A stretch of DNA of 64,000 nt from Myxococcales bacterium. Lineage in GTDB: Bacteria > Myxococcota > Myxococcia > Myxococcales > Myxococcaceae. The position numbers were made by a program, and so were the translations under genes. Shown piece after piece: positions 28,656 through 41,434 of this stretch. Where the stretch lies: positions 62,001 through 126,000 of the forward strand of contig JACPVI010000048.1 of the NCBI GenBank assembly GCA_016191815.1, in the 5' to 3' direction. The notes under the pieces are model-generated. The model was not told the origin of the DNA, searched no databases, and saw nothing but the letters and a program-made list of their open reading frames with translations. Positions within the stretch are counted from its first letter, which is position 1. Each line of letters begins with the position of its first letter.

Positions 28656-29975
28656 ATGGCCAGGACCTTCGTAAGTGCCTCCAGGAGCACTTCCCTCCCG
28701 CCCTCTCCCGGAAAGCCGCGGATCATCGTCTGCGACGCCACGGTGAAGATGCAGCGGCTGCTTCAAGCGGTGCTGGGCGAGCAATACGACTGCGTCCCGC
28801 TCCAGAGCGGCGAAGAGGTGCTGGAGGTCGCCCTCGCCGCGGTCCCGGACATGATCATCGCGGAGATCGACCTCCAGGGAATGAGCGGGATGGAGCTTTG
28901 CCGGCAGGTGAAGGCCGAGCCGCGGCTGGAATCGGTCCCGGTCATCCTCCTCACCGGAGTGGCCGACGGCGAGTCGCGGGCGATCGGCCTCGAGTCAGGA
29001 GCGGACGAGTACCTCTACAAGCCGCTTCGGCCGCGGGAGCTGAGGGCGCGAGTCGCCTCACTGCTCAAGCTGCGCTTCGCCTCCCAGTCACTCGAGGCGC
29101 GAACCTTGGAGCTGGAGAGCGCCAACCGCGGGCTGGTGCAAGCCCAAAGAGCGCTGGTCCAGGCGGAGAAGCTGGCCAGCATCGGCACCTTGGTGGCCGG
29201 AGTGGCGCACGAGATCAACAACCCCTTGACCTTCATCACCGCCGGGGTGGGGGCGCTGGAGGAGCTCATCGGCGAGCTGGCGCAGCTCTCCGAGGCGGTG
29301 CAGGCGGCCGTCCCCGAGCAGCGGGAGCAGGCCCGGATTGAGCTGGACGCCACCGCCAGCGAGTCACGCCAGGTGCTCATGGAAATCGCCGACGGGGCCC
29401 GGAGGCTCCAGCGGATCTCCTCCGAGCTCAAGCTGATGGCCCCCAGCCAGCAGATGAGCTTCGAAGAGGTGGACCTCGCCGCGGAGGTGCGGGCGGCCTG
29501 GAAGCTGGCCAATCCCGGGCCGGGTGTCGCCTTCGTGCCGAAAGTGGACCTGCCGCCGCTGTGGTCGGTCGGGCACATGATCGGCCAGGTCCTCTCCAAC
29601 CTGTTCACCAACGCGATCCATGCGATGAACGGGAAGGGCCTCGTCTGTTGCTCCGCCACCGAGGGCGAGGGCGAAGTGGTGGTGGAGGTGAAAGACGACG
29701 GCCCGGGCATCGCCCCCCAACACTTGCCGCGCGTCTTCGACCCCTTCTTCACCACCAAGCCGGTGGGCAAGGGCACCGGGCTGGGCCTGTCGGTCTCGCG
29801 CGCGCTGGTCCAGAAGCTGGGAGGCACCATCGAGGTTTCCTCTCGCCCGGGCGCGGGGGCCACCTTCACCATTCGGCTGCCGAGGACCCAAAAGGCGGCC
29901 TCGCCCGAGTCTGGGGAGCTCGAGGCGCCGCCGGCGGCGCAACCTGGCTGCAGCGAGCATGCGCGCGCCCAGTAA
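28656..29975 (+). CDS. Receiver-histidine kinase protein with Glu at the phosphorylation site
   Basis: A 439-residue soluble protein with a receiver domain (about 20-135), a coiled linker and a histidine kinase core. In the receiver the phospho-acceptor Asp is replaced by Glu (PDMIIAE, E70), and the acidic pair is reduced to C26-D27; T100 and K122 are kept. The kinase has the H box LVAGVAHEINNPLTF, N box LSNLFTNAIHAM, G1 DDGPGIAP, F box FDPFFTTK and G2 GKGTGLGLSV. The kinase should be active while the receiver may be locked or only ligand-responsive. ATG 28656 follows GGAG. The next gene, a large Ser/Thr kinase, overlaps its end by 17 bases. Confidence 0.92.
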   Translation: MARTFVSASRSTSLPPSPGKPRIIVCDATVKMQRLLQAVLGEQYDCVPLQSGEEVLEVALAAVPDMIIAEIDLQGMSGMELCRQVKAEPRLESVPVILLTGVADGESRAIGLESGADEYLYKPLRPRELRARVASLLKLRFASQSLEARTLELESANRGLVQAQRALVQAEKLASIGTLVAGVAHEINNPLTFITAGVGALEELIGELAQLSEAVQAAVPEQREQARIELDATASESRQVLMEIADGARRLQRISSELKLMAPSQQMSFEEVDLAAEVRAAWKLANPGPGVAFVPKVDLPPLWSVGHMIGQVLSNLFTNAIHAMNGKGLVCCSATEGEGEVVVEVKDDGPGIAPQHLPRVFDPFFTTKPVGKGTGLGLSVSRALVQKLGGTIEVSSRPGAGATFTIRLPRTQKAASPESGELEAPPAAQPGCSEHARAQ

Positions 29976-32900
29976 CGGCAGCTCCGCGGCGGTGGTGGCG
30001 CCGATCGGCGCACCGCCCCCCTCGTGGGCCCCGCCCCCTGGCTTCGACGGGTATCGGCTGGGCGCGCTGATCGGCAAGGGCGCGATGGGCGAGGTGTACC
30101 TCGCCCAGGACGAGCTTTTGGAGCGGCCGGTGGCGGTGAAGTTCCTCCTCCCCGCGAAGGTTTCCCAAGAGCTCCGCAGCACCTTCCTCGGAGAGGCGCG
30201 GGCCCTGGCGCGGCTGCAGCATCCCAACGTGGTCGCGGTGTACCGGGCGGGCGAGGTGGCGGGGCACCCGTACCTCGCCTACGAGCTGGTGCGCGGGGAG
30301 AGCCTCGCACAGAGGAGAAAACCGGTCGGCTGGAGGGAAGCCCTCGATCTCGGCTTGCAGCTCGCCCGCGGGCTCGGGGCGGCGCACCGGCGGGGCGTGT
30401 TGCACTGCGACCTCAAGCCGGCCAACGTGCTGGTCGGCGAAGGCGGGGAGCTCAAGCTGGTGGACTTCGGCCTGGCCAGGTTGGCAACTCCTCCCCCGCG
30501 CGCGGGCGAGGGCCGGGCCGAGGAGCCGATCGGCACTCCCGCCTACATGGCGCCGGAAGTCTGGGCGGGGAGCCCGCCCACGACGCGGTCCGACGTCTAC
30601 TCCGCGGGCGCGCTCTTGTACGAGCTGATGGTCGGCCACCCCCCGCACCTCGATGGGGACGTCGCCGAGCTGTCGGCGGAGATTGCCTCCCTTCCTTTGG
30701 AGCCGATGGCCTCCTGCGTCCCGGGCGTCGACCAGGGGTTCGCCGAGGTCGTCGAGCGCTGTCTGAAAATAAAGCCCGAGCTGCGGTTCGCCTCGGGCGA
30801 GGAGCTGGCGGGGGCCCTGGGCCGCCTCGCCTCCCGCAGGCTCCGCGGTCCTTTCGCCAGGGGCAACCCGTACCGGGGGCTCCAAGCCTTCCAGGTCGAG
30901 CACCGCGCCGTCTTCTTCGGACGGGAGGCCGAGGCGCAGGCCCTCATCGAGCGGCTGCGCTCGGAGCCGGTGGTGGTGGTGGTGGCGGACTCCGGGGTGG
31001 GCAAGTCCTCCCTCTGCCGCGCCGGAGTGCTGCCCGAGCTGTCTTCGGGCGCCCTGGGCAGCGACCGGGAGTGGCGCGGGCTTTCGGTGAGCCCGGGCCT
31101 GCACCCTCTGGCCTCGCTGGCCGGCGCGCTCGCAACTTTCCTCGAAGCGGACGAGGAGGCGCTCTCCCGCGCGATCGCCGCGGATCCGCAGGCCGCCGCG
31201 AGGGAGATCCGCGGCCGGCTGGGTCGCCTCACCGGCCTGTTGCTCTTCGTCGACCAGCTCGAGGAGCTGGCCACCCTGAGCCGGCCCGAAGAGGCCAAGG
31301 CTGCCTCGGAGCTCTTGGGGTGGCTCACGGCGGGAGGCACCGGCATCCGCCTGCTCGCGACACTCCGGAGCGACTTCCTCACGCGCGTGGCGGCCCTGCC
31401 CGGCCTCGGCGCCGAGCTGGGGCGGACGCTGTTCCTCCTCAAGCCGCTCTCCCAGCAGGCCATCCGCGAAGCGGTGGTCGGTCCGGCGGCGATCAGCGGC
31501 GCCTCCTTCGAGTCGGAGGAGCTGGTCCGCTCGCTCGTCGAGGCGGGCAGCTCGGGCGAGGGCGGCCTGCCGCTGTTGCAGTTCGCCCTGAGCGAGCTGT
31601 GGGAGCACCGGGAGCCCTCCACCGGGGTGCTGACCCTCGAGGCGCTGGAGAAGATGGGCGGAGTGGTGGGAGCTTTGGCCCGCCACGCGGACGGAGTGTT
31701 CGGCGGACTTTCGGCCAGCCAGGCCAGTGCGGCGAGGAGGATGCTCCCGCTCTTCGTCACCCTGGAGGGGACGCGGGCCCACCGCTCGGAGCGGGAGCTC
31801 CTGGCGGGAGACGGCGCCGCCCGGGAGGTTTTGGACGCGCTGGTCCGCGCCAGGCTCTTGGTGGCCAGCGAGGGCCGATTCGGATCCAGCTACGAAGTCG
31901 CCCACGAGGCGCTGATCCAGGGCTGGCCCACGCTGCGGCGCTGGCTCGAGGAGGACGCCGACCAGCGCGCGGCCCGGGAGCGGCTCTCGAAGGCCGCCGC
32001 CGACTGGCTCCGACTCGGGCGCAGGGGCGATGGGCTGTGGGGGAAGCGGCTTCTTCGCGAGGCCTCCTCCATCGACCCGGCCGGCCTGTTGCCCGAGGAA
32101 ATTGCCTTCCTGGAGGCCTCGCGGCGAGCGCTCCGCCGCCGGAAGGTGGGTGGGCTCATGGCGGCCTTCGCCTCTGCGCTGCTCGCCTTGGCGGGCTACG
32201 TCGCAATCCAGGCGAGGGCGCAGGGTGAGTTCGGCCGAAGGCTCGACCGGCAGGTGGAGGCCGCCCGAGCCTCGCTGGCCTCTGCGCACGAGCTGGCCGG
32301 CCGGGCAGCTCTCCAGCGGGCGGTGGCGGACCAGGCATTCGAGCGCGACACCGAAGACCAGGCGGAGGAGGCCTTCGAGGAGGCGCAGAGGCTCTCTTCC
32401 GAGGCCGGGCGCCGCTTCGCCCAGAGCACCCAGCTGCTCGAGGCGGCCTGGAACCTCGATCGGAGCCGCGACGAAGTGCGCGAGTGGCTCGCCGACGCCT
32501 TGGTCGAGCGGGTGCTCTTTCTCGATAGCGCAGCGCAACCGGAGCTGATGGAGGAGCTGCGGGCCCGCCTGGAGCTGGTGGACCCGAGCGGCGTCCGCAG
32601 CCAGCGTCTGTCCGCTCCGGGGTTGGTTCGACTCCGGCTCACGCCCGCGGCGGCGGTGCGGGTGCGGGATCGGGACGGCCGGCTGGTCGAGGAGCGGCCC
32701 GTGTCGGTGGAGGCGCTTTTGTCCTCGCCTCCCGGCTCGTATCTCCTCGAGGCCCGAGCGCCAGGCTTCGGGGAGGTCCGCCTCCCCTTGCTCCTCGGCC
32801 GCGCGGAGCGGCTCGACCTGGCCGTGGAGCTGCCCGCCGCGGCGGAGGTGCCGGAGGGCTTCGTCCACGTGCCGGCTGGGCGCTTCCTCACCGGGGCCCG

Positions 32901-33666
32901 AGCCGACGAGGCGCTGCGCAAGGACTTCCTCAAGGCCCCACCCCTTCGCGCCGCGGCCACGCCCACCTTCCTGATCGCCCGATACGAAACCACCTATGCG
33001 GAGTGGATCTCTTTCCTGGAATCGCTCCCGGAGGCGGAGCGAGTGCGCCGGACGGCGCGGGTGGGGCGCGCGGGGGACCGCGGCTCGCTCCTGCTCACGC
33101 GTTCGCCCAAAGGGTGGCAGCTGATCCTCAGGCCCACCGAGGAGGAGCACCTGGCTCGCGCCGGTGAGCGGATTCGCTACCGGGAACGAGGCAGCCACGC
33201 GGACCAGGATTGGCTTCGGTTCCCGGTGACGGGAATTGGCGCCGAGGACGCGGAGGCCTACGCCGCTTGGCTCGGCGAGACCGGCCGGGTGCCGAAGGCA
33301 CGCCTGTGCACCGAGCTGGAATGGGAGCGCGCCGCCCGCGGCGCCGACGGGCGCCCCTATCCTCACGGCGAGTCCTTGCGCCCCGAAGACGCGAACTTCG
33401 ACGAGACTTACGGGAAGAAACCGGAGGCCTTCGGACCCGACGAGGTCGGATCGCACCGGCGCTCCGACAGCGTCTTCGGGGTCTCCGACATGTCCGGCAA
33501 CGCCTTCGAGTGGACCCGATCGGCGCGCGATGGAGAGTATGTCGCCCGCGGAGGCAGCTACTACTACGGCCGCAACACCGCGCGGCTCGACAACCGCGAG
33601 GTGACCGAGCCGAGCCTTCGCGATCTCAGCGTGGGCGTGCGGATCTGCGCTGATCCGAGCCGGTGA
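29959..33666 (+). CDS. Ser/Thr kinase - nSTAND NTPase - FGE-sulfatase-like fusion
   Basis: A 1235-residue signalling protein. Residues 30-290 are a Hanks-type kinase with Gly loop GKGAMGEVYLA, K61, catalytic loop HCDLKPAN (149-156), DFG 169-171 and GTPAYMAPE. Residues about 300-700 match the nSTAND1 module (NPYRGLQAFQVEH, Walker A ADSGVGKSS near 340, Walker B LLLFVDQLEEL). One membrane helix lies near 730-752, then a coiled region, a PEGA-like segment (about 895-950) and a C-terminal formylglycine-generating-enzyme-like domain (about 965-1235; GFVHVPAGRF, SGNAFEWT, RGGSYYYG). The kinase is predicted cytoplasmic and the last domain outside. HRD is HCD, so the loop Arg is missing. The start overlaps the upstream kinase gene. 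Confidence 0.92.
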   Translation: MRAPSNGSSAAVVAPIGAPPPSWAPPPGFDGYRLGALIGKGAMGEVYLAQDELLERPVAVKFLLPAKVSQELRSTFLGEARALARLQHPNVVAVYRAGEVAGHPYLAYELVRGESLAQRRKPVGWREALDLGLQLARGLGAAHRRGVLHCDLKPANVLVGEGGELKLVDFGLARLATPPPRAGEGRAEEPIGTPAYMAPEVWAGSPPTTRSDVYSAGALLYELMVGHPPHLDGDVAELSAEIASLPLEPMASCVPGVDQGFAEVVERCLKIKPELRFASGEELAGALGRLASRRLRGPFARGNPYRGLQAFQVEHRAVFFGREAEAQALIERLRSEPVVVVVADSGVGKSSLCRAGVLPELSSGALGSDREWRGLSVSPGLHPLASLAGALATFLEADEEALSRAIAADPQAAAREIRGRLGRLTGLLLFVDQLEELATLSRPEEAKAASELLGWLTAGGTGIRLLATLRSDFLTRVAALPGLGAELGRTLFLLKPLSQQAIREAVVGPAAISGASFESEELVRSLVEAGSSGEGGLPLLQFALSELWEHREPSTGVLTLEALEKMGGVVGALARHADGVFGGLSASQASAARRMLPLFVTLEGTRAHRSERELLAGDGAAREVLDALVRARLLVASEGRFGSSYEVAHEALIQGWPTLRRWLEEDADQRAARERLSKAAADWLRLGRRGDGLWGKRLLREASSIDPAGLLPEEIAFLEASRRALRRRKVGGLMAAFASALLALAGYVAIQARAQGEFGRRLDRQVEAARASLASAHELAGRAALQRAVADQAFERDTEDQAEEAFEEAQRLSSEAGRRFAQSTQLLEAAWNLDRSRDEVREWLADALVERVLFLDSAAQPELMEELRARLELVDPSGVRSQRLSAPGLVRLRLTPAAAVRVRDRDGRLVEERPVSVEALLSSPPGSYLLEARAPGFGEVRLPLLLGRAERLDLAVELPAAAEVPEGFVHVPAGRFLTGARADEALRKDFLKAPPLRAAATPTFLIARYETTYAEWISFLESLPEAERVRRTARVGRAGDRGSLLLTRSPKGWQLILRPTEEEHLARAGERIRYRERGSHADQDWLRFPVTGIGAEDAEAYAAWLGETGRVPKARLCTELEWERAARGADGRPYPHGESLRPEDANFDETYGKKPEAFGPDEVGSHRRSDSVFGVSDMSGNAFEWTRSARDGEYVARGGSYYYGRNTARLDNREVTEPSLRDLSVGVRICADPSR

Positions 33667-33797
33667 TCCGCTGTCCGCGGCGACCCACCCCCGGCCGGGC
33701 GACCCTCCCTTCCATCAGCAAGTCCGCATTCCCCCTTCCTTTTCGATCGGTCCGCCGGTTGCTTTTCCACCGCTCGAACCCAACCACGGAGACTGCC

Positions 33798-34844
33798 GTG
33801 TCGCGAGCCAGATTGCCCTCCTTGTCGTGCCTGTTGGCAGTTGGCGCCCTCGCCGCAGGGTGTGACGCCGCCTCTGACATCCACCTGTCGGCGGAGCGAA
33901 GCAAGGGGGCGCTCACCATCGACAACGGCCGGGACTTGAACGGCCGGGACCTCAACGGCCGGGACCTCAACGGCCGGGACTTGAACGGCCGGGACCTCAA
34001 CGGGCGCGACCTCAACGGCCGTGAGGTGAATGGCCGGGAGGTGAACGGCCGGGACCTCAACGGCCGGGCGCTGAACGCAGTCTCGATGAATGGGGTCGAG
34101 CTGGCCGGGGTGAGCATCGGCCGGGTGAGCCTGGTGGGGAGCGAGCTGTTGGCCAGCGACTCGGCCGGGGTGGTGCTGCGAGGTGCTCAGGTCGTTGGGG
34201 CCGTCCTTGTCGGCGAGCTGGACAATGGCGACTCGGTGGACGTCCGGATCGACTCGGTGGCCTCGGGAGGTGGAGGCGTCTTCCTGTACGGCATCTCCGC
34301 GCTTTCCATCCGCGGCTGGGTGCCGTGGTGCGGAGTCGGGCCTTCCGGCGAATCGTTGCCGGCGGTGGCGCTCGCGGGGAGGTGGGACTACCGCAAGGGC
34401 GTTTCTGGCGGCGGGAGCTGGATCGCCGACGCCGACCGCTTCACCTTCGCTTGCCAGGGCTTCGCGCTGCACAAGTGCGTGCACCTGGGATACCTGCCGT
34501 GGAGCTCGGCGACGGTGTGCAGCCCCGGCGCCGGCTGCACTTCGGTCCCGCTCAAGCCCTACCACCAGGCCTGCACCCGGATGATGCGCGCGGACTACTG
34601 TGGAGACGGCCGGTCGTTCACCCGCAACGGAACGCTGATCAACATCTATGACGGAGTGGGCATCCAGGTGGACACGGAGAGCTGGGTACTCGAGGCGGAG
34701 TGGGACGAGCGCGGCGCGCGCTGCCTGTCGCAGCGGAGGATCTCCGGGGGCCAGGTCACCTGTGGCCACACTCTGAGCTCGGAGGGCTGCGGCGACCCGG
34801 GAAACTTCTTCGCCGGCACGCTGATCGTCACCGAGGCTCCGTAG
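33798..34844 (+). CDS. ADYC-motif lipoprotein with NGRDL pentapeptide repeats
   Basis: A 348-residue predicted lipoprotein: basic N-terminus, hydrophobic core and lipobox LAAGC with C22. Residues 43-92 are ten tandem copies of N-G-R-(D/E)-(L/V), with RALNA at the end. A glycine-rich, beta-type region follows, then a Cys-rich C-terminal domain containing MRADYCGDG near residue 265, the namesake motif of the myxobacterial ADYC domain. The repeats resemble pentapeptide-repeat proteins but have an unusual Asn-Gly-Arg frame. Function unknown; outer-membrane or surface location is inferred. GTG 33798 places the signal correctly. It converges with the GH99-like gene, separated by a hairpin repeat. 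Confidence 0.85.
   Translation: MSRARLPSLSCLLAVGALAAGCDAASDIHLSAERSKGALTIDNGRDLNGRDLNGRDLNGRDLNGRDLNGRDLNGREVNGREVNGRDLNGRALNAVSMNGVELAGVSIGRVSLVGSELLASDSAGVVLRGAQVVGAVLVGELDNGDSVDVRIDSVASGGGGVFLYGISALSIRGWVPWCGVGPSGESLPAVALAGRWDYRKGVSGGGSWIADADRFTFACQGFALHKCVHLGYLPWSSATVCSPGAGCTSVPLKPYHQACTRMMRADYCGDGRSFTRNGTLINIYDGVGIQVDTESWVLEAEWDERGARCLSQRRISGGQVTCGHTLSSEGCGDPGNFFAGTLIVTEAP
33924..34073 (+). repeat. Ten tandem 15-bp repeats (AACGGCCGGGACCTC type)
   Basis: Ten head-to-tail 15-base units encode the NGRDL repeats of the ADYC lipoprotein. Five of the first five differ only at CTC/TTG, while later copies drift (CGTGAGGTG, CGGGCGCTG). Near identity suggests recent expansion, and the copy number could vary between strains. 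Confidence 0.9.
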
Positions 34845-34852
34845 GACAAGAA

Positions 34853-34890
34853 CCCCTCTCCCGCCAAGCGCGAGAGGTCGGGGTGAGGGG
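34853..34890. repeat. REP-like hairpin between convergent genes
   Basis: The sequence CCCCTCTCCCGC, a short loop, then GCGAGAGGTCGGGGTGAGGGG forms an imperfect stem. The same CCCTCTCCC...GAGAGG...GGGTGAGGG pattern is a widespread dispersed hairpin element in GC-rich proteobacteria. It sits between the ADYC and GH99-like stop codons and probably also acts as a two-way terminator. Confidence 0.6.
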
Positions 34891-34900
34891 CGCCTGCGGA

Positions 34901-35977
34901 TCACCGCGGCGGCGCAGCGCGGTGCAGCCGCCGGGTGAGCTCGAGGTAGGCGTCGCCGTGTTCGAGGCTGGGTTCGATCTCCGAGCCCTCGTGCCACTCG
35001 TTGTAGCTGGTGAGCAGGTAGAAGTCGGGGCGCCCCGCGCCGGCCGCGGCCCAGAGGGACTCGTAAAGTCGGCCGCCATCACGGTCGAGCCGGTGTGCCC
35101 CCGGCCTCCCGATGGCGGTGTCGTCGTAGCCGGGCAGCACCGTGGCGCCGGCGGAGAGGCCGCGCGCGTGGGCGGTTCGGACGAGTTTTCGCCACCCCGC
35201 GGCCATGTCCAGGCCGAGGTCCACCTCCACGTGCGGATTGTAGACGTGCACCGAGTCGAAGCCCAGCTCGGCCAGCGCGGGGACCCGGTCGAACAGCCCA
35301 GCCCCGAGCGCGTCGGCGCAGAGCCATGCCGGCCCCTGCTGCCGCACCGCGGAGACGATGGCGCTCCAGTCGGCCTCCACGACCTCATCGGGGCACTGCT
35401 CGAAGAAACAGAACACCCGCGGGAAGATGGCCCGGCCGTAGACGAACACCGCCGGCCGGCCGTCGACGCGAAGCGCGGAGGGGCGGCTGCCGAACGTCTC
35501 GAGCAAGTAGCCGATGTCCTCCACGGCGAGCGCGGAGTTGCCCTCGCGCACCTGCTCGAAGTAGGGCGCCACGCGGACCGGGCTGCCCGAGGCTTCGATG
35601 GCGTCCATCAGCGCTCTGAGCTGCGCATCCTCGACGCTGCCCTTGCCCCACCAGGACACCACCACGCCGGAGATGTCGGCGCGCGAAAGCTCGCCGAGCT
35701 GCCGCTCGATGACCGAGGGATCGCTCGAGTCGTACAGCCCGGCCTCGGGATGCTCGCTGGCGGCGATGTCCGGCAACCCGGCGTCAGTGAGGCGATCTGG
35801 ATCGTGCCCCACGTCCCCCCAGTGGATCCACCGACCGGAGACCGCGGGGGTGCCGTACCAACCGTAATAGAAGGCCCATAGCGGCGCAGGCTCAGTCGGA
35901 GGAGGCGGCCGCGCCCCGCAGTGCAGCGCCAGAGCGGCGCACACCGCAAGGGGGAGCCTCCACGCGAGCTTGCTCAT
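34901..35977 (-). CDS. Lipoprotein with endo-alpha-mannosidase-like (GH99/GH71-type) fold
   Basis: A 358-residue protein that begins with a lipoprotein signal (LAVCAALALHC). Its opening WAFYYGWYGTP, the middle ISGVVVSWWGKGS and the late SYNEWHEGSEIEP are the recognisable blocks of the GH99-like family of TIM-barrel enzymes acting on alpha-mannosides. The acidic residues of the last block are likely catalytic. Location is periplasm or outer membrane. Substrate cannot be read from sequence; many bacterial members act on host or environmental glycans or are uncharacterised. Start ATG 35977 places the lipobox properly; the open frame extends further upstream without a signal. A TAGTCT element stands 7 bases ahead of it. 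Confidence 0.8.
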   Translation of the reverse strand: MSKLAWRLPLAVCAALALHCGARPPPPTEPAPLWAFYYGWYGTPAVSGRWIHWGDVGHDPDRLTDAGLPDIAASEHPEAGLYDSSDPSVIERQLGELSRADISGVVVSWWGKGSVEDAQLRALMDAIEASGSPVRVAPYFEQVREGNSALAVEDIGYLLETFGSRPSALRVDGRPAVFVYGRAIFPRVFCFFEQCPDEVVEADWSAIVSAVRQQGPAWLCADALGAGLFDRVPALAELGFDSVHVYNPHVEVDLGLDMAAGWRKLVRTAHARGLSAGATVLPGYDDTAIGRPGAHRLDRDGGRLYESLWAAAGAGRPDFYLLTSYNEWHEGSEIEPSLEHGDAYLELTRRLHRAAPPR

Positions 35978-35984
35978 CCAGCGG

Positions 35985-35990
35985 AGACTA
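35985..35990 (-). promoter_or_regulatory. TAGTCT -10-like element 7 bases before the GH99-like start
   Basis: On the minus strand TAGTCT is followed by CCGCTGG and then ATG 35977. No Shine-Dalgarno is present. The spacing fits a leaderless transcript; no good -35 is visible. Confidence 0.3.
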
Positions 35991-36029
35991 CCCAACGCAG
36001 CGGGCCTCCGGGGTAACCCGCACCGCGTG

Positions 36030-36038
36030 TGATAGGAT
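36030..36038 (+). promoter_or_regulatory. Extended -10 (TGA-TAGGAT) before the PPC-repeat lipoprotein
   Basis: A TG dinucleotide, one base and TAGGAT form an extended -10 element. Transcription would begin near 36045, leaving a leader of about 22 bases that ends in GGGGGGTGTC before ATG 36068. Confidence 0.35.
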
Positions 36039-36067
36039 TCTAGCCGCACGGCTTTCCGGGGGGTGTC

Positions 36068-39000
36068 ATGGCCTGGCGAATCACCGTGGTTGGGCTCGGC
36101 CTTTGGGCCGGAGTTTCAGTTCTCGCCCCTGGCTGCCGTGGCCCGGGACCAGAGGCGTACGACCAGGCCTGCCAGGGGGTGGTGTGCGGGCCGGGCAGGT
36201 GCGTGCTGGACGTGGACCGCCCGGCCTGCATATGTGACGAGGGGTTCACGGCGGACGCCCTCGCCTGCGTCCCCGATGGCTCGCGGCCCCGCGGCGTCTG
36301 CGCCCCCAACCCCTGCAACGAGCCGAGGCGGAGCCAGTGCCGCGAGGTGGCCGGCGCGGCGCGGTGCGAGTGCGACCCCGATAGTTACGAGGTAAGCGGC
36401 TCTTGCGTGCCGAAGACCGCCTGCTCGCCCAACCCGTGCACTGGGGCGAACCAGACCACTTGCTCGCTGGTGGGGGGAAGCGCGGTGTGCTCCTGCGACC
36501 CGGGCTATTCCCCGGAGGGAAACGGCTGCGGCGCAGAGCCGGTCTTCAGCTGCGCGGACCAGCACACCGGATCGCTCTCCGACGCCTTCGAGCCCGACGA
36601 GTGCCCGTCGCTGGCCAAGGAACTGCCCCTGGGGACACCGGACCTGCAGGGCCACACCATCGGGCCGGCCGCGGACGCGGACTGGTACCGCATCACCCCC
36701 GAAGTCGGACACATCTACCTCGTCACCGCGAGCGCCGCCTTCGCGCTCTACGCGGACGTGTACCGCTCGGACGGGGTGACCGCCATCGCCGCCGACCACA
36801 GAGGAACGGGCTCGATCGCGGTGCGCTTCAAGGCCACCAGCGCCGAGCCACGCTACGTGCGGATCCGCGCCCTCCGCGCCAACGAGGTGGGGAGCTACAC
36901 CATCGCCGCCTTGGACCTCGGGCTTGACGACTTCCCCGACTCGCCGGCCACGGCGTTGCCGATCGCGGTGGGGAGCACTCTTTCCGGCGAATTGCAATTC
37001 GACGGCGACGTGGACGCCCTCCGCATCGAGGTGAGCGGCGGCCACGCGTACGAGGTGGACGCGAGCTGGGGAGGACCGCTGCTCCAGCTGCAGCTCGTCG
37101 GAGCGGACCGCACCACGCTGCTGCGGTCCGCCCAGGGTGCACCCTCGGCTCAGATAGTGACCCGCCCCTCCTCGGACGGGGCGATATACGTCCTGGTCAA
37201 GTCCGCACAATCGGCGGGGATCGGGACCTACTCGCTGCAAATCCAGGACCTCGGGCCCGACGACCACGGCGACGTCCCCCCGGAGGCGACTGCCCTCACC
37301 CCCTCGCCCTCGCTGTGGCTTGGGGCCCTGGAGCGGACGGGGGACGTCGACGTCTTCTCCTTCAACGCGCAATCCGGGCACATCTACAGCTTCATCTGCA
37401 CGGTGGGGACGGGCTACTCCTACGGCTGCGCGAGTCAGCTCATCGACGCGAACGGAGCCGTGTTCGCCGACAGTTCCGGCTCGAACTACTACACCACCGC
37501 GCTCTTCCACGAGGCGGTGCAGAGCGGAAAGCTCTACGCGCGCGTTACCGTGACCCGGGGCTCGAGCGCGTACCTCACCTACTCGTTCAGGCTCGAAGAC
37601 CTAGGGCCCGACGACCACGGTGACACGCCGGCGGCAGCGACGGCGATCGCGTTGGGCTCAAGCGGCGCCGGCCGGCTGGAAATCAATCAGGACGTGGACG
37701 TCTTTTCTTTCACCGCCACGTCCGGACGCATCTACCGCTTCAAGGCCACCTCCGGCCCCCTAAGCAACGTCATCTCCGCGCGCATGCTGAACTCGACGGG
37801 AGCAGTCCTCGCGACATCAGACACCTCATTCTCCTCGTCGACGGTGGCGTACGAGGCCACCGCGGGCGGCACAATCTACGCCGAGGTGAAGAGCCTGTCC
37901 TCCTACGGAAACAGCACGAGCTACGCCTACGTCCTCGACGACCTCGGGCCCGATGACCACGGAGACAGCGTCGCCGCGGCCACATCCATCGCCGCCAACT
38001 TCTCCGCCACGACGGGCTCCATCGAAACCTTGGGCGACGTGGACGTCTTCAGGTTCATCGCGGTCGCCGGAAACGTCTACCGCTTCACCTGCACGGTCAG
38101 CTCGTACGGCGCCTGCAAGCCGGTGATGAAAAACCCGGCGGGGGTGACGGTGGCCACGAGCGCCTACGGCGGCACCTACACCTCTGTGGTTGGGCACGAG
38201 GCGGCCGTTTCGGGCACCCACTACGTCGAGGTGACCTTCGGGAGCAGCTACTACGGCAACACGGGCACCTACACCTACAGGCTCGATGACTTGGGGCCGG
38301 ACGACCATGGCGACAGCCCGGCCACCGCCACTTCCATCACACCTTCGGCGAACCGCTCGAGCGCGAACCTGGAAATCCACAACGACGTGGACGTGTTCGC
38401 CTTCACGGCTGCCGCCGGCCGCATCTACCGATTCACCTGCGCCGGGGGCACCTCCTCCCAGCCATTCGCCCTTCGGGTGCTCAATTCGATGAGCGTCGAC
38501 CTGAAGGCTTGGACTACCGCCGGCAGCGGGTACGCGACTTCGATTGTCGGCTACGAGCCAGCCACCACGGGCACCTACTACGTGGAAATTTCCGGTGGGA
38601 ACTACTACGCGGTCGCAGGCCCCTACACCTACACCCTCGAGGATCTCGGCCCTGACGACCACGGGGACACCCTCGCCACTGCCACGGCGTTGACCCCTCC
38701 CGCCAGCGGGCAGGCAGCGCTGGAACTGGGGAACGACACCGACGTGTTCAGCTTCACCGCCGCCGCGGGGAACCTCTATCGCTTTACCTGCACTCCCGGA
38801 ACGCTGTCCTCGTGCGGGCTGCGGCTCAAAGACTCCTTTGGTACGGTGCTGGCCACTGGGGGCGGCTACTCGAGCATCGTCGCTGCGTTCACCGCTCCTG
38901 CCTCCGGCGTCTACTACGCCGAGGTGTCCACGAGCTACTTCGGCACCGGCGGCAATTACACCTATCGGGTCGACGACGTCGGCACCGATGACCACGGCGA

Positions 39001-39295
39001 CAGCTATACCTCGGCCACGCCCCTGATGGGCCTATCCGCGTTCGCCAGCGGAACCATCGAGTACGCCGGCGATCGGGACTACTTCTCGATTTCCTTGGGC
39101 GCCGGTGAATCTCACACCGTCGTCAGCTCCGGCGTCTACATCTACGTGACGGTGTACGGGACCAGCGGCGTGACCCAGGTCGCCCCCGTTGGCTCACCTC
39201 CGCTGAGCTTCATCACCACCGGCGCGGGTACCTACTATCTACAAGTGGTGAGCTACGGCGGTGGCACCGGCGCCTACCAGATCGCCGTCCAGTGA
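36068..39295 (+). CDS. Large lipoprotein with EGF-like modules and PPC-type repeats
   Basis: A 1075-residue exported protein. A lipoprotein signal (VLAPGC, C23) is followed by three Cys-rich EGF-like modules (about 30-160). Then come eight beta-sandwich units of about 115 residues in the style of bacterial pre-peptidase C-terminal (PPC) domains. Five units begin DLGPDDHGD and carry DVDVFSF-like strand motifs and Y-rich ends (TYTYRLDDLG). The first and last units are diverged. There is no protease domain, so the repeats stand alone, probably as an adhesin or a surface sugar- or ion-binding stalk; DxD-rich turns suggest calcium. Substrate and role are unknown. Codon use is somewhat less GC-biased than in neighbours. 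Confidence 0.85.
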   Translation: MAWRITVVGLGLWAGVSVLAPGCRGPGPEAYDQACQGVVCGPGRCVLDVDRPACICDEGFTADALACVPDGSRPRGVCAPNPCNEPRRSQCREVAGAARCECDPDSYEVSGSCVPKTACSPNPCTGANQTTCSLVGGSAVCSCDPGYSPEGNGCGAEPVFSCADQHTGSLSDAFEPDECPSLAKELPLGTPDLQGHTIGPAADADWYRITPEVGHIYLVTASAAFALYADVYRSDGVTAIAADHRGTGSIAVRFKATSAEPRYVRIRALRANEVGSYTIAALDLGLDDFPDSPATALPIAVGSTLSGELQFDGDVDALRIEVSGGHAYEVDASWGGPLLQLQLVGADRTTLLRSAQGAPSAQIVTRPSSDGAIYVLVKSAQSAGIGTYSLQIQDLGPDDHGDVPPEATALTPSPSLWLGALERTGDVDVFSFNAQSGHIYSFICTVGTGYSYGCASQLIDANGAVFADSSGSNYYTTALFHEAVQSGKLYARVTVTRGSSAYLTYSFRLEDLGPDDHGDTPAAATAIALGSSGAGRLEINQDVDVFSFTATSGRIYRFKATSGPLSNVISARMLNSTGAVLATSDTSFSSSTVAYEATAGGTIYAEVKSLSSYGNSTSYAYVLDDLGPDDHGDSVAAATSIAANFSATTGSIETLGDVDVFRFIAVAGNVYRFTCTVSSYGACKPVMKNPAGVTVATSAYGGTYTSVVGHEAAVSGTHYVEVTFGSSYYGNTGTYTYRLDDLGPDDHGDSPATATSITPSANRSSANLEIHNDVDVFAFTAAAGRIYRFTCAGGTSSQPFALRVLNSMSVDLKAWTTAGSGYATSIVGYEPATTGTYYVEISGGNYYAVAGPYTYTLEDLGPDDHGDTLATATALTPPASGQAALELGNDTDVFSFTAAAGNLYRFTCTPGTLSSCGLRLKDSFGTVLATGGGYSSIVAAFTAPASGVYYAEVSTSYFGTGGNYTYRVDDVGTDDHGDSYTSATPLMGLSAFASGTIEYAGDRDYFSISLGAGESHTVVSSGVYIYVTVYGTSGVTQVAPVGSPPLSFITTGAGTYYLQVVSYGGGTGAYQIAVQ
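37247..38990 (+). repeat. Repeated PPC units, about 345 bp each
   Basis: Units starting near 37247, 37599, 37940, 38286 and 38639 each open with the codons for DLGPDDHGD, and a diverged unit follows near 38980. Spacing is 340-354 bases. At DNA level the unit starts are well conserved while the middles have diverged, so duplication is not very recent. Confidence 0.8.
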
Positions 39296-39400
39296 CCTCG
39301 CGCGAAGGGCCCTCCGTCCGAGGCGAGAGAGCAGGCCGGCTTGACGGCGTCGCCTCCACGCCCGCGGGCTGCGAACCGGGGTACTGTCACCAGCGGGCGG

Positions 39401-41434
39401 ATGCGACTTTTCGCTGCCGAAGCCACCGTCGGGCTGAGGCTCCGCGCGCTGGTGGCGCTGAGCGCTTTCCTTCTCTTCGCCGCGGAATTGATGGTGGCCC
39501 GCCGGCTGCTCCCCGACTTCGGCAGCAGCGCCCACGTCTGGCTCACCTGCCTCGTCTACTACCAGGCAGTGCTCTTTCTCGGCTACCTCGCCGCCTCGCG
39601 CGCCCCGTTGGGGAGCAGGCACTTCCGCCTCTTGCATGCCCTGGCGGTGCTCCTCCCCATGGGCGCTTTTCCCTTCCGCTTCCTTCGCTTGGACGCGCAC
39701 CCCGTGCTCGGAGTGATGGCGGCGCTCTCCGCCTCGGTGGGAGCGCCCCTCCTCGCCCTCTGCGCCACCAGCGTCCTCGCCCAACGCTGGCTCGCCGCCT
39801 CCGGCCTCCCTTCTGCGAAAGACCCCTACTTCCTCTACGGCAGCTCCAACCTGGGCTCGCTGGCCGCACTCGTTGCCTACCCGCTCCTCATCGAGCCGGC
39901 GATGGGACTCCGGGCCCAGCTCTTCGCCTGGTACCTGGGCTACGGCGCCTTCGCCCTGCTGTCCATCGCCTCCAGCCGGCGCGCCGAGCCGGCCGGTCCA
40001 CCCGAGCACGCTCCCGCCCGCGCGCGGCTCTCTTGGCTTCTCTTCGCCGCCGGCGGCACCGCGCTGCTCACCGCCTCCACCAGCGTCGTCACCGCGGACG
40101 CGCCGGCTCCCCTCCTCTGGGCGCTTCCCTTGGCCATCTACCTCGCCTCGTTCGTCCTCTGCTTCTCGCCGAGGCCCCTCGCTTGGCCCACCGTGCGCGC
40201 CCTCACCATCGGAGCCATCGCCACCGCGGGGGCCATGCTGCCGCTGGGGAAGCTGGTGCCTGGCTGGCTGCAACTGTCGACGATCGCGCTCCACTCGAGC
40301 GCGCTGTTCGCCGGTTGCCTGGTGTGCCAGTGGAACCTCGCGCGCTCCCGGCCGGAGGATACAAGGCTGATGGGCTCCTACTATCTCCACCTCTCGCTGG
40401 GTGGCTGGCTCGGAACGGCGCTGCTCGGGCTGGCAGCGCCCCTGGCCCTCGGCTCGCTCGCCCTCCCGCACGCGGACTACGCGCTCGCCGGCGCGGTGCT
40501 GCTCGCGGCGCTGCTCTTGAGGGACCTGCGGCGCCTCGCCGCCTGGGCATCGTCAAGGCGCGCCCGGGCCGCGGGCGGTGCCCTCCTCGCCCTGTCGACT
40601 CTGACGGGCCTCGGCCTCGCCTCGGCCTGGGCGATTCGCAGGCGCGTCGATGGGGTGCGGACCTTCTACGGCTTCCATCAGGTGAAGGACGAGGGGGGGC
40701 TCCGGTGGCTCCACCACGGCAACACCGTGCATGGGCTGGAGAGCCTCGACCCTTCCGAGCGAGGCGAACCGCTGGCGTACTACCACCGCTCCTCGCCCAT
40801 CGGCAGGGCGCTCTTGGCCCAACCGGCAGGGCGCGCGGCGGTGGTGGGGCTTGGGGTGGGAAGCCTCGCCGCCTACTCGCGCCCGGGCGAGCGGTGGGAC
40901 TTCTACGAGCTGGATCCCGAAGTCGAGCGTCTCGCCCGCCAGCACTTCACCTTCCTCTCGCGCGCCGAGGGCGCGGTGGAGGTGCACCACGGCGACGCCC
41001 GGCTCCGGCTCGCCGAGGCCCCAGCCGCCTCCTACCGGCTGATCGTGGTCGACGCTTTCAGTTCCGACTTCGTGCCCACCCATCTCCTCACCCGCGAGGC
41101 GATGGAGCTGTATCTCTCCAAGCTTTCTTCCGGCGGAGTGGTGGCCTTTCACCTCTCCAACCGGTGGTTCGAGCTGTCCCCGGTAGTGGCGCGCACTGCG
41201 CTCTCGAAGGGGCTCGCGGTGGCGCGGGGCTCCGGGGAGGCCCCTGACCTGGCCGCGCAGGAGCGAGGGCTCTTCCCTTCCATCTGGCTTGCGGCGTCGC
41301 CCGGGGAGGCGGCCCTCTCCCCTTGGGTGGAGCGCGCTGGCTGGAGCTGGCTTCCCCCCCGCGGCGGCGCGCAGCCCGCCTGGACCGACGACCGCCTCAA
41401 TCTCCTCGAGGCCCTGCGCCCACCCGGTCGGTGA
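39401..41434 (+). CDS. Membrane protein fused to a spermidine-synthase-like domain
   Basis: A 677-residue protein: about 12 hydrophobic helices in residues 10-430, then a soluble class I methyltransferase-fold domain (about 450-677) of the spermidine synthase type. Motifs are VVGLGVGSLAAYSR, the acidic FYELDPEVE, HHGDARLRL and LIVVDAFSSDFVPTHLL. The fusion is known from many bacteria as 'fused MFS/spermidine synthase', but its reaction is unproven. I chose ATG 39401; a TTG at 39341 in the same frame is preceded by no signal. A TACTGT element lies 13 bases upstream of the ATG. Function in polyamine metabolism is only an inference from the fold. Confidence 0.85.
   Translation: MRLFAAEATVGLRLRALVALSAFLLFAAELMVARRLLPDFGSSAHVWLTCLVYYQAVLFLGYLAASRAPLGSRHFRLLHALAVLLPMGAFPFRFLRLDAHPVLGVMAALSASVGAPLLALCATSVLAQRWLAASGLPSAKDPYFLYGSSNLGSLAALVAYPLLIEPAMGLRAQLFAWYLGYGAFALLSIASSRRAEPAGPPEHAPARARLSWLLFAAGGTALLTASTSVVTADAPAPLLWALPLAIYLASFVLCFSPRPLAWPTVRALTIGAIATAGAMLPLGKLVPGWLQLSTIALHSSALFAGCLVCQWNLARSRPEDTRLMGSYYLHLSLGGWLGTALLGLAAPLALGSLALPHADYALAGAVLLAALLLRDLRRLAAWASSRRARAAGGALLALSTLTGLGLASAWAIRRRVDGVRTFYGFHQVKDEGGLRWLHHGNTVHGLESLDPSERGEPLAYYHRSSPIGRALLAQPAGRAAVVGLGVGSLAAYSRPGERWDFYELDPEVERLARQHFTFLSRAEGAVEVHHGDARLRLAEAPAASYRLIVVDAFSSDFVPTHLLTREAMELYLSKLSSGGVVAFHLSNRWFELSPVVARTALSKGLAVARGSGEAPDLAAQERGLFPSIWLAASPGEAALSPWVERAGWSWLPPRGGAQPAWTDDRLNLLEALRPPGR

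Follow-up and report, generated by a model that had tools for sequence, protein, structure and literature searches.

The gene for a 1235-aa transmembrane Ser/Thr kinase in a myxobacterial genome (6.77 Mb in 89 contigs) is very probably linked in function to the gene that follows it, which encodes a secreted lipoprotein with an ADYC domain (PF20032). The pairing of the kinase with the following secreted protein suggests a dedicated receptor and partner. The fuller reading, that the core of the locus is a two-gene module made of a transmembrane STAND receptor kinase and an adjoining ADYC lipoprotein, with the outer FGE-fold domain of the kinase working with ADYC, is in our judgement evenly poised. 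The computed support consists of the domains, the membrane helix, intact kinase and NTPase motifs, the loss of the FGE cysteine pair, and the co-occurrence, adjacency and co-evolution with ADYC; from these we infer direct contact between the FGE domain and ADYC, and the direction of signalling. The initial annotation of the window (the whole stretch of DNA that was analysed, 64,000 nt) overlooked this conserved partner directly 3' of the kinase gene and paired the kinase with a histidine kinase encoded upstream. The features of the locus are the following:

28656 to 29975, plus strand: soluble histidine kinase of 439 aa with a degenerate N-terminal receiver (Pfam)
28722 to 29054, 29184 to 29438 and 29580 to 29888, plus strand: its receiver, HisKA and HATPase_c parts (Pfam)
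29959 to 33666, plus strand: transmembrane Ser/Thr kinase-nSTAND1-FGE-fold receptor protein of 1235 aa (Pfam, family alignment)
30052 to 30792, plus strand: Hanks-type kinase domain with HCD loop, VAVK lysine, DFG and APE present (Pfam, alignment)
30868 to 32025, plus strand: nSTAND1 NTPase with intact Walker A (ADSGVGKSS) and Walker B (FVDQLEEL) (Pfam, alignment)
32152 to 32208, plus strand: membrane helix, N side positive (hydropathy, 55 of 56 members)
32227 to 32838, plus strand: predicted helical stalk and beta-rich spacer on the exoplasmic side, resembling PEGA only by eye (AlphaFold2 model mc59652425517)
32857 to 33645, plus strand: FGE-sulfatase (C-type-lectin-type) domain without the catalytic cysteine pair (Pfam, structural matches)
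33798 to 34844, plus strand: ADYC-domain (PF20032) lipoprotein, likely start GTG 33798 after GGAG, listed ORF start GTG 33663
33861 to 33863, plus strand: cysteine of the lipobox LAAGC, assigned by pattern match and not by a signal-peptide program
33923 to 34102, plus strand: pentapeptide repeats NGRDL with a 15-nt period (repeat search; profile matches to solved pentapeptide-repeat proteins)
34182 to 34742, plus strand: ADYC domain (Pfam 1.6e-47; AlphaFold2 pLDDT >90 across most of the domain)

Open reading frames and Pfam confirm the histidine kinase gene and the kinase-nSTAND-FGE gene as they were first described, and the union of kinase, nSTAND, membrane helix and FGE-like outer domain in one chain is borne out by hydropathy and by Pfam (Pkinase at residues 32-278, 5.6e-45; nSTAND1, PF20703, at 304-689, 3.2e-102; FGE-sulfatase, PF03781, at 967-1229, 3e-31). 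Of 39 genomes belonging to the same family, 17 carry relatives at E <=1e-150, one to six each, which are 43-54 % identical across the matched part. They amount to 59 hits including two in the own genome, of which 57 were looked at with their flanks and 56 complete ORFs were aligned (the window copy and 55 relatives); G003 C135 and G010 9458898 were excluded as edge or partial hits. All hallmarks of Hanks-type kinases are present in the window copy: the Gly-rich loop, the VAxK lysine, HxD, DFG and APE. The HxD aspartate is invariant in the alignment (56/56). The HCD loop that had caught the attention of the initial annotation is real, but it belongs to the window copy alone, the other 55 members having HRD, and it was rejected as a signature of the family. 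The Walker A (P-loop) lysine and the Walker B aspartate are kept in all 56 members, in support of the initial picture. A phmmer search of the nSTAND part against PDB sequences gave no match at 0.01. The paralogue in the own genome (L002/L050, on contig C4) is 50 % identical to the window kinase, has no ADYC gene, and lies beside an FHA-GAF gene and a convergent gene for a STIG1-like Cys-rich protein.

The window copy has a single membrane helix at about residues 732-750 with positive charge on the kinase side. Hydropathy picks a helix after nSTAND1 in 55 of the 56 members, L065 falling slightly under the threshold, and a further helix elsewhere in eight; in 55/56 more positive charge lies on the nSTAND1 side. 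Because the helix is conserved and its nSTAND1 side carries more positive charge, the FGE domain is placed outside and the kinase inside, which supports the original picture of a signalling protein with an inside end (kinase, nSTAND1) and an outside end (the FGE fold).

The ectodomain, aligned as the window copy with 31 of the 33 sequences found, was modelled by AlphaFold2 with a mean pLDDT of 86.6 and lower confidence in two stretches of its FGE part. Its structural matches are CalU17, PorK, FGE, PvdO and TvpA, with Z of about 20-22 over 206-238 residues, and the PF03781 match together with Z of about 21 to FGE structures assigns it to the FGE-family fold. The fold and the Pfam match would also suit an active formylglycine-generating enzyme or a related oxidase with ADYC or sulfatases as its substrate, a reading that we regard as extremely improbable. 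Two cysteines after the RGG stretch, the position that we take to be that of the active-site (copper) cysteines of FGE, are found in none of the 56 members: the segment from RGG to residue 1229 is free of cysteine in 55 of them and holds one in L098. The only invariant cysteines of the FGE part, Cys 1117 and Cys 1230, look like a disulfide. The copper or cysteine ligands that had been suggested for this domain are thus missing from the alignment, and its role as a copper oxidase was rejected.

The next gene 3' of the kinase gene matches ADYC at 162.4 bits against a Pfam cut-off of 27 and contains the RADYC motif. Its likely start, GTG at 33798, heads a lipoprotein-type signal ending in LAAGC, and most of 54 ADYC ORFs likewise open, judged by eye, with a signal-peptide-like stretch or a lipobox. 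The own genome has one ADYC match in its 6.77 Mb, immediately 3' of the window kinase. An AlphaFold2 model built on an alignment of the window copy with 61 of 80 named loci has a mean pLDDT of 81.8; Foldseek gave no match at E <=0.001 and VIA-align none with Z >3.6, results that do not by themselves make the fold a novel one. Since the structure searches returned no significant match, the function of ADYC cannot be derived from its fold, and no mention of 'ADYC domain' or PF20032 was found in the open-licence literature searched.

The case for a functional link rests on distribution, position and divergence. Among 195 genomes of the phylum the kinase occurs in 74, ADYC in 75 and both in 74, with no kinase-only genome and one ADYC-only genome (G065), where presence of the kinase means E <=1e-80, a threshold chosen once the values had shown a gap from 1e-74 to 1e-84; ADYC is absent from all 25 genomes whose kinase matches are only weaker ones. 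These counts are uncorrected for relatedness and not independent, 65 of the 75 ADYC genomes being of one family, but the pair is found again in five further families. For the phylum, four kinase candidates were scored per genome, so that copy numbers are lower bounds, and outside the family both gene positions are among the matches listed for G086 only. Within the 39 family genomes the set with the kinase is identical to the set with ADYC (17 and 17). There, 52 of 59 kinase genes have an ADYC gene within 3 kb and 52 of 66 ADYC genes have a kinase gene at that distance, and adjacency is maintained though ADYC may be downstream, upstream or convergent. ADYC is absent within 10 kb of seven of the 59 kinases, including the paralogue in the own genome, and at least two of these seven sit on contigs shorter than 5 kb; conversely, 12 of the 66 ADYC genes have no kinase within 10 kb, short contigs being among the exceptions. 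Present at 48 of the 56 loci and in nine of ten kinase subgroups, ADYC ranks first among the neighbour families.

Co-evolution was measured by distance matrices on 45 of the 54 ADYC ORFs, after dropping those that the script placed at least 1500 nt away from the kinase (several of them picks of a wrong frame or locus) or 700 aa or longer. The kinase and ADYC matrices correlate with r 0.885 over the 45 pairs, a value reached in none of 2000 shuffles; when ADYC was shuffled only among paralogues of the same genome, r averaged 0.12 over 2000 rounds and reached 0.45 at most. The Spearman rho over all pairs is just 0.55, and the two matrices give the same nearest neighbour for 33 of the 45. By domain, r with ADYC is 0.893 for nSTAND1 and 0.824 for FGE; with nSTAND1 marginally ahead, these values do not point to FGE in particular as the site of contact. 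Contact cannot be shown from adjacency alone, and the two genes may instead be inherited together through one pathway without touching, for instance if the kinase controls the production or state of the ADYC envelope protein. The 22 loci without a nearby kinase described below would fit such an arrangement, but the co-evolution of paralogous pairs within genomes is stronger than a loose pathway link would lead one to expect, and we consider it unlikely.

A search of other named genomes with an ADYC profile gave 182 loci, and the best 80 of these carry myxobacterial titles save for a Comamonas label and a Deltaproteobacteria MAG. Among the best 80, kinase, nSTAND1 and FGE lie within 4.5 kb at 31 loci and in part at two; another kinase lies within 500 bp at 15 (13 Nannocystis, two MAGs) and farther off at three; and there is no kinase match at 22 with long flanks and seven with short flanks. 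Three of the other ADYC-adjoining kinases were checked (L138, L162, L179) and have the order kinase-TM-TPR. ADYC thus seems to be linked to transmembrane kinases more widely, and it has another life too, with no kinase nearby at 22 of the 80 loci, in Nannocystis as well. It is tempting, if doubtful, to generalise that the ADYC family consists of secreted ligands or co-receptors, each paired with a transmembrane receptor kinase of its own. Myxobacteria would then run numerous ligand-receptor-kinase lines side by side, a number of which are gated by a STAND switch of the immune type, with the ADYC-kinase-TM-TPR loci of Nannocystis following the same principle with another ectodomain. Myxococcus xanthus AM003 (L111) has a receiver-kinase-ADYC locus. 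The record labelled Comamonas sp. KCTC 72670 (L107) has a Myxococcus-like receiver-kinase-ADYC locus, and its label is probably wrong.

Under the preferred reading of a receptor kinase with an ADYC partner, the lipoprotein would be presented beyond the inner membrane, where the exoplasmic FGE-fold domain would bind it on its own or together with a third ligand. The membrane helix would relay this event to nSTAND1. An ATP-dependent switch of nSTAND1 to an oligomer would in turn gather the kinase domains and so set Ser/Thr phosphorylation. The stand-alone receiver encoded upstream at about one third of the related loci is a likely phosphorylation target or regulator, and in the host genome an unrelated histidine kinase with a pseudo-receiver appears to have taken its position. 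PorK is a lipoprotein of the type 9 secretion ring. With its partner PorN it offers a precedent for an FGE fold inside a periplasmic complex (Z 21.7), and the likeness of PorK/GldK to the window protein lies in this partnership; the difference is that the FGE fold of the latter is the ectodomain of a kinase.

The upstream gene itself is a two-component histidine kinase by its domains (Response_reg 23-133, HisKA 177-261, HATPase_c 309-411) and its normal H-box, HEINNPL. Its receiver has Glu at the phospho-Asp position (EIDLQGMSG) and a weakened acid pocket, where the 16 nearest histidine kinases and 20 aligned neighbouring receivers all have Asp at the phospho-acceptor position; it is therefore a probable pseudo-receiver that has lost its phospho-Asp. 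The 17 nt that the two ORFs have in common hinge on the start ATG 29959, which by eye has a weak ribosome-binding site; the alternative starts GTG 29992 and GTG 29995 would leave a short gap. The overlap is thus not proven, and tight packing of the genes holds with any start. This packing, together with the association of two-component parts with the family and the known HstK-type fusions of Ser/Thr and His kinases (PMC2176072), favours the initial idea that the two kinases form one integrated complex. Set against it, tblastn at 1e-8, which a very divergent sequence might escape, found a histidine kinase adjoining the large gene at none of the 56 related loci, and the histidine kinase is a gene other than the single-domain receivers found there. 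We regard such a complex as improbable. No Ser/Thr kinase was found in the flanks, about 1.5 kb or less, of the 16 closest histidine kinases elsewhere, and the best relatives in 58 family genomes reach at most 41 % identity. The pair thus fails on conservation, the test set for it at the outset, because no histidine kinase was found at any of the 56 related loci. As a conserved partner the histidine kinase was rejected on this count, on the lack of a Ser/Thr kinase beside its 16 nearest relatives and on the lost receiver Asp; what stands of the integrated complex is the single protein with its inside and outside ends. The available sections of PMC2176072 describe HstK as a single fused chain with GAF, which unites Ser/Thr and His kinase like the window locus but unlike its separate genes and unconserved histidine kinase.

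Directly upstream of the kinase, 20 of the 56 related loci have a single-domain receiver with an intact Asp, overlapping the kinase gene by 4 nt in one subgroup and separated from it by gaps of 38-120 nt in another, and the receiver is also found at 17 of 31 complete named loci. Of the upstream neighbours typed with Pfam, those in other subgroups encode a sigma-54 activator or are divergent and have a match to sigma-70 region 4. In group S0 (L024 and L026 typed) this divergent gene, with the match at its C-terminus, lies between the ADYC and kinase genes; the family is present in 12 loci.

STAND NTPase-FGS proteins are predicted counter-invader proteins in the available parts of PMC8195603, PMC10907252 and PMC7159879, with DGR diversification of the FGS domain frequent but not universal. 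Their architecture is already published, and the window protein shares it: a central nSTAND1, a C-terminal FGS/FGE domain and an N-terminal effector, S/T/Y kinases being among the effectors named in the consulted section 7 of PMC8195603. An immunity or cell-death system in which FGE senses the invader and the kinase is the effector draws on this likeness, on the presence of nSTAND1 and FGE among the DGR targets in the excerpts of PMC10907252, on kinase matches to the PADLOC PD-T4-6 models, which look like generic kinase matches, and on a C-terminal FGE stretch more variable than the FGE core (1.70 vs 0.98 bits, 56 members). We rate it as rather unlikely. The window protein differs from the STAND-FGS proteins in the helix that places FGE outside, in its dedicated ADYC gene and in showing no sign of a DGR nearby: positions 29000-41000 hold no template-variable repeat pair, the linker varies more than the FGE C-terminus does, and the sole reverse transcriptase match of the genome (RVT_1, 4473-5111 on contig C68, in a 577-aa frame) lies on another contig, from where it could in principle act at a distance. 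Repeats, entropy and reverse transcriptase gave no support for a DGR-diversified sensor. Three features count against a conflict system of the standard form: the outside sensor, the one strict secreted partner in place of shuffled effectors and the lack of any DGR sign at the locus. TvpA and Mtd, variable proteins of DGRs, resemble the ectodomain in their C-type-lectin-type FGE fold, with Z of 20.1 for TvpA and about 12 for Mtd; the window locus differs in that no variable-repeat machinery was found there. The STAND switch is here wired to an outside sensor and not to an inside one.

Ser/Thr kinase-DUF323 (FGE) fusions of cyanobacteria and Chlamydia (PMC2176072, PMC1262709) likewise join a Hanks-type kinase to a C-terminal FGE-type domain. 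They differ in that nSTAND1 is not among the 14 additional domain types given in the available text of PMC2176072, and neither source, in the sections at hand, describes a secreted partner; the portion of PMC7694542 consulted contains nothing on the kinase-nSTAND1-FGE architecture. To our knowledge, what the eukaryote-like kinases of myxobacteria sense is largely unknown. These bacteria are rich in such kinases, with 353 in Minicystis rosea according to the abstract of PMC8436480. A strict, co-evolving lipoprotein partner supplies a named candidate ligand for one receptor kinase family, and the ADYC domain gains what would be, judged by the literature searched, its first functional link. Beyond the ADYC gene, a glycosyl hydrolase family 99-type gene (34901-36049, minus strand) is oriented towards it, and a secreted-looking protein of 1075 aa (36068-39295, plus strand) follows, with an EGF-like start and PPC domains that lie in about five repeats of 345 nt.
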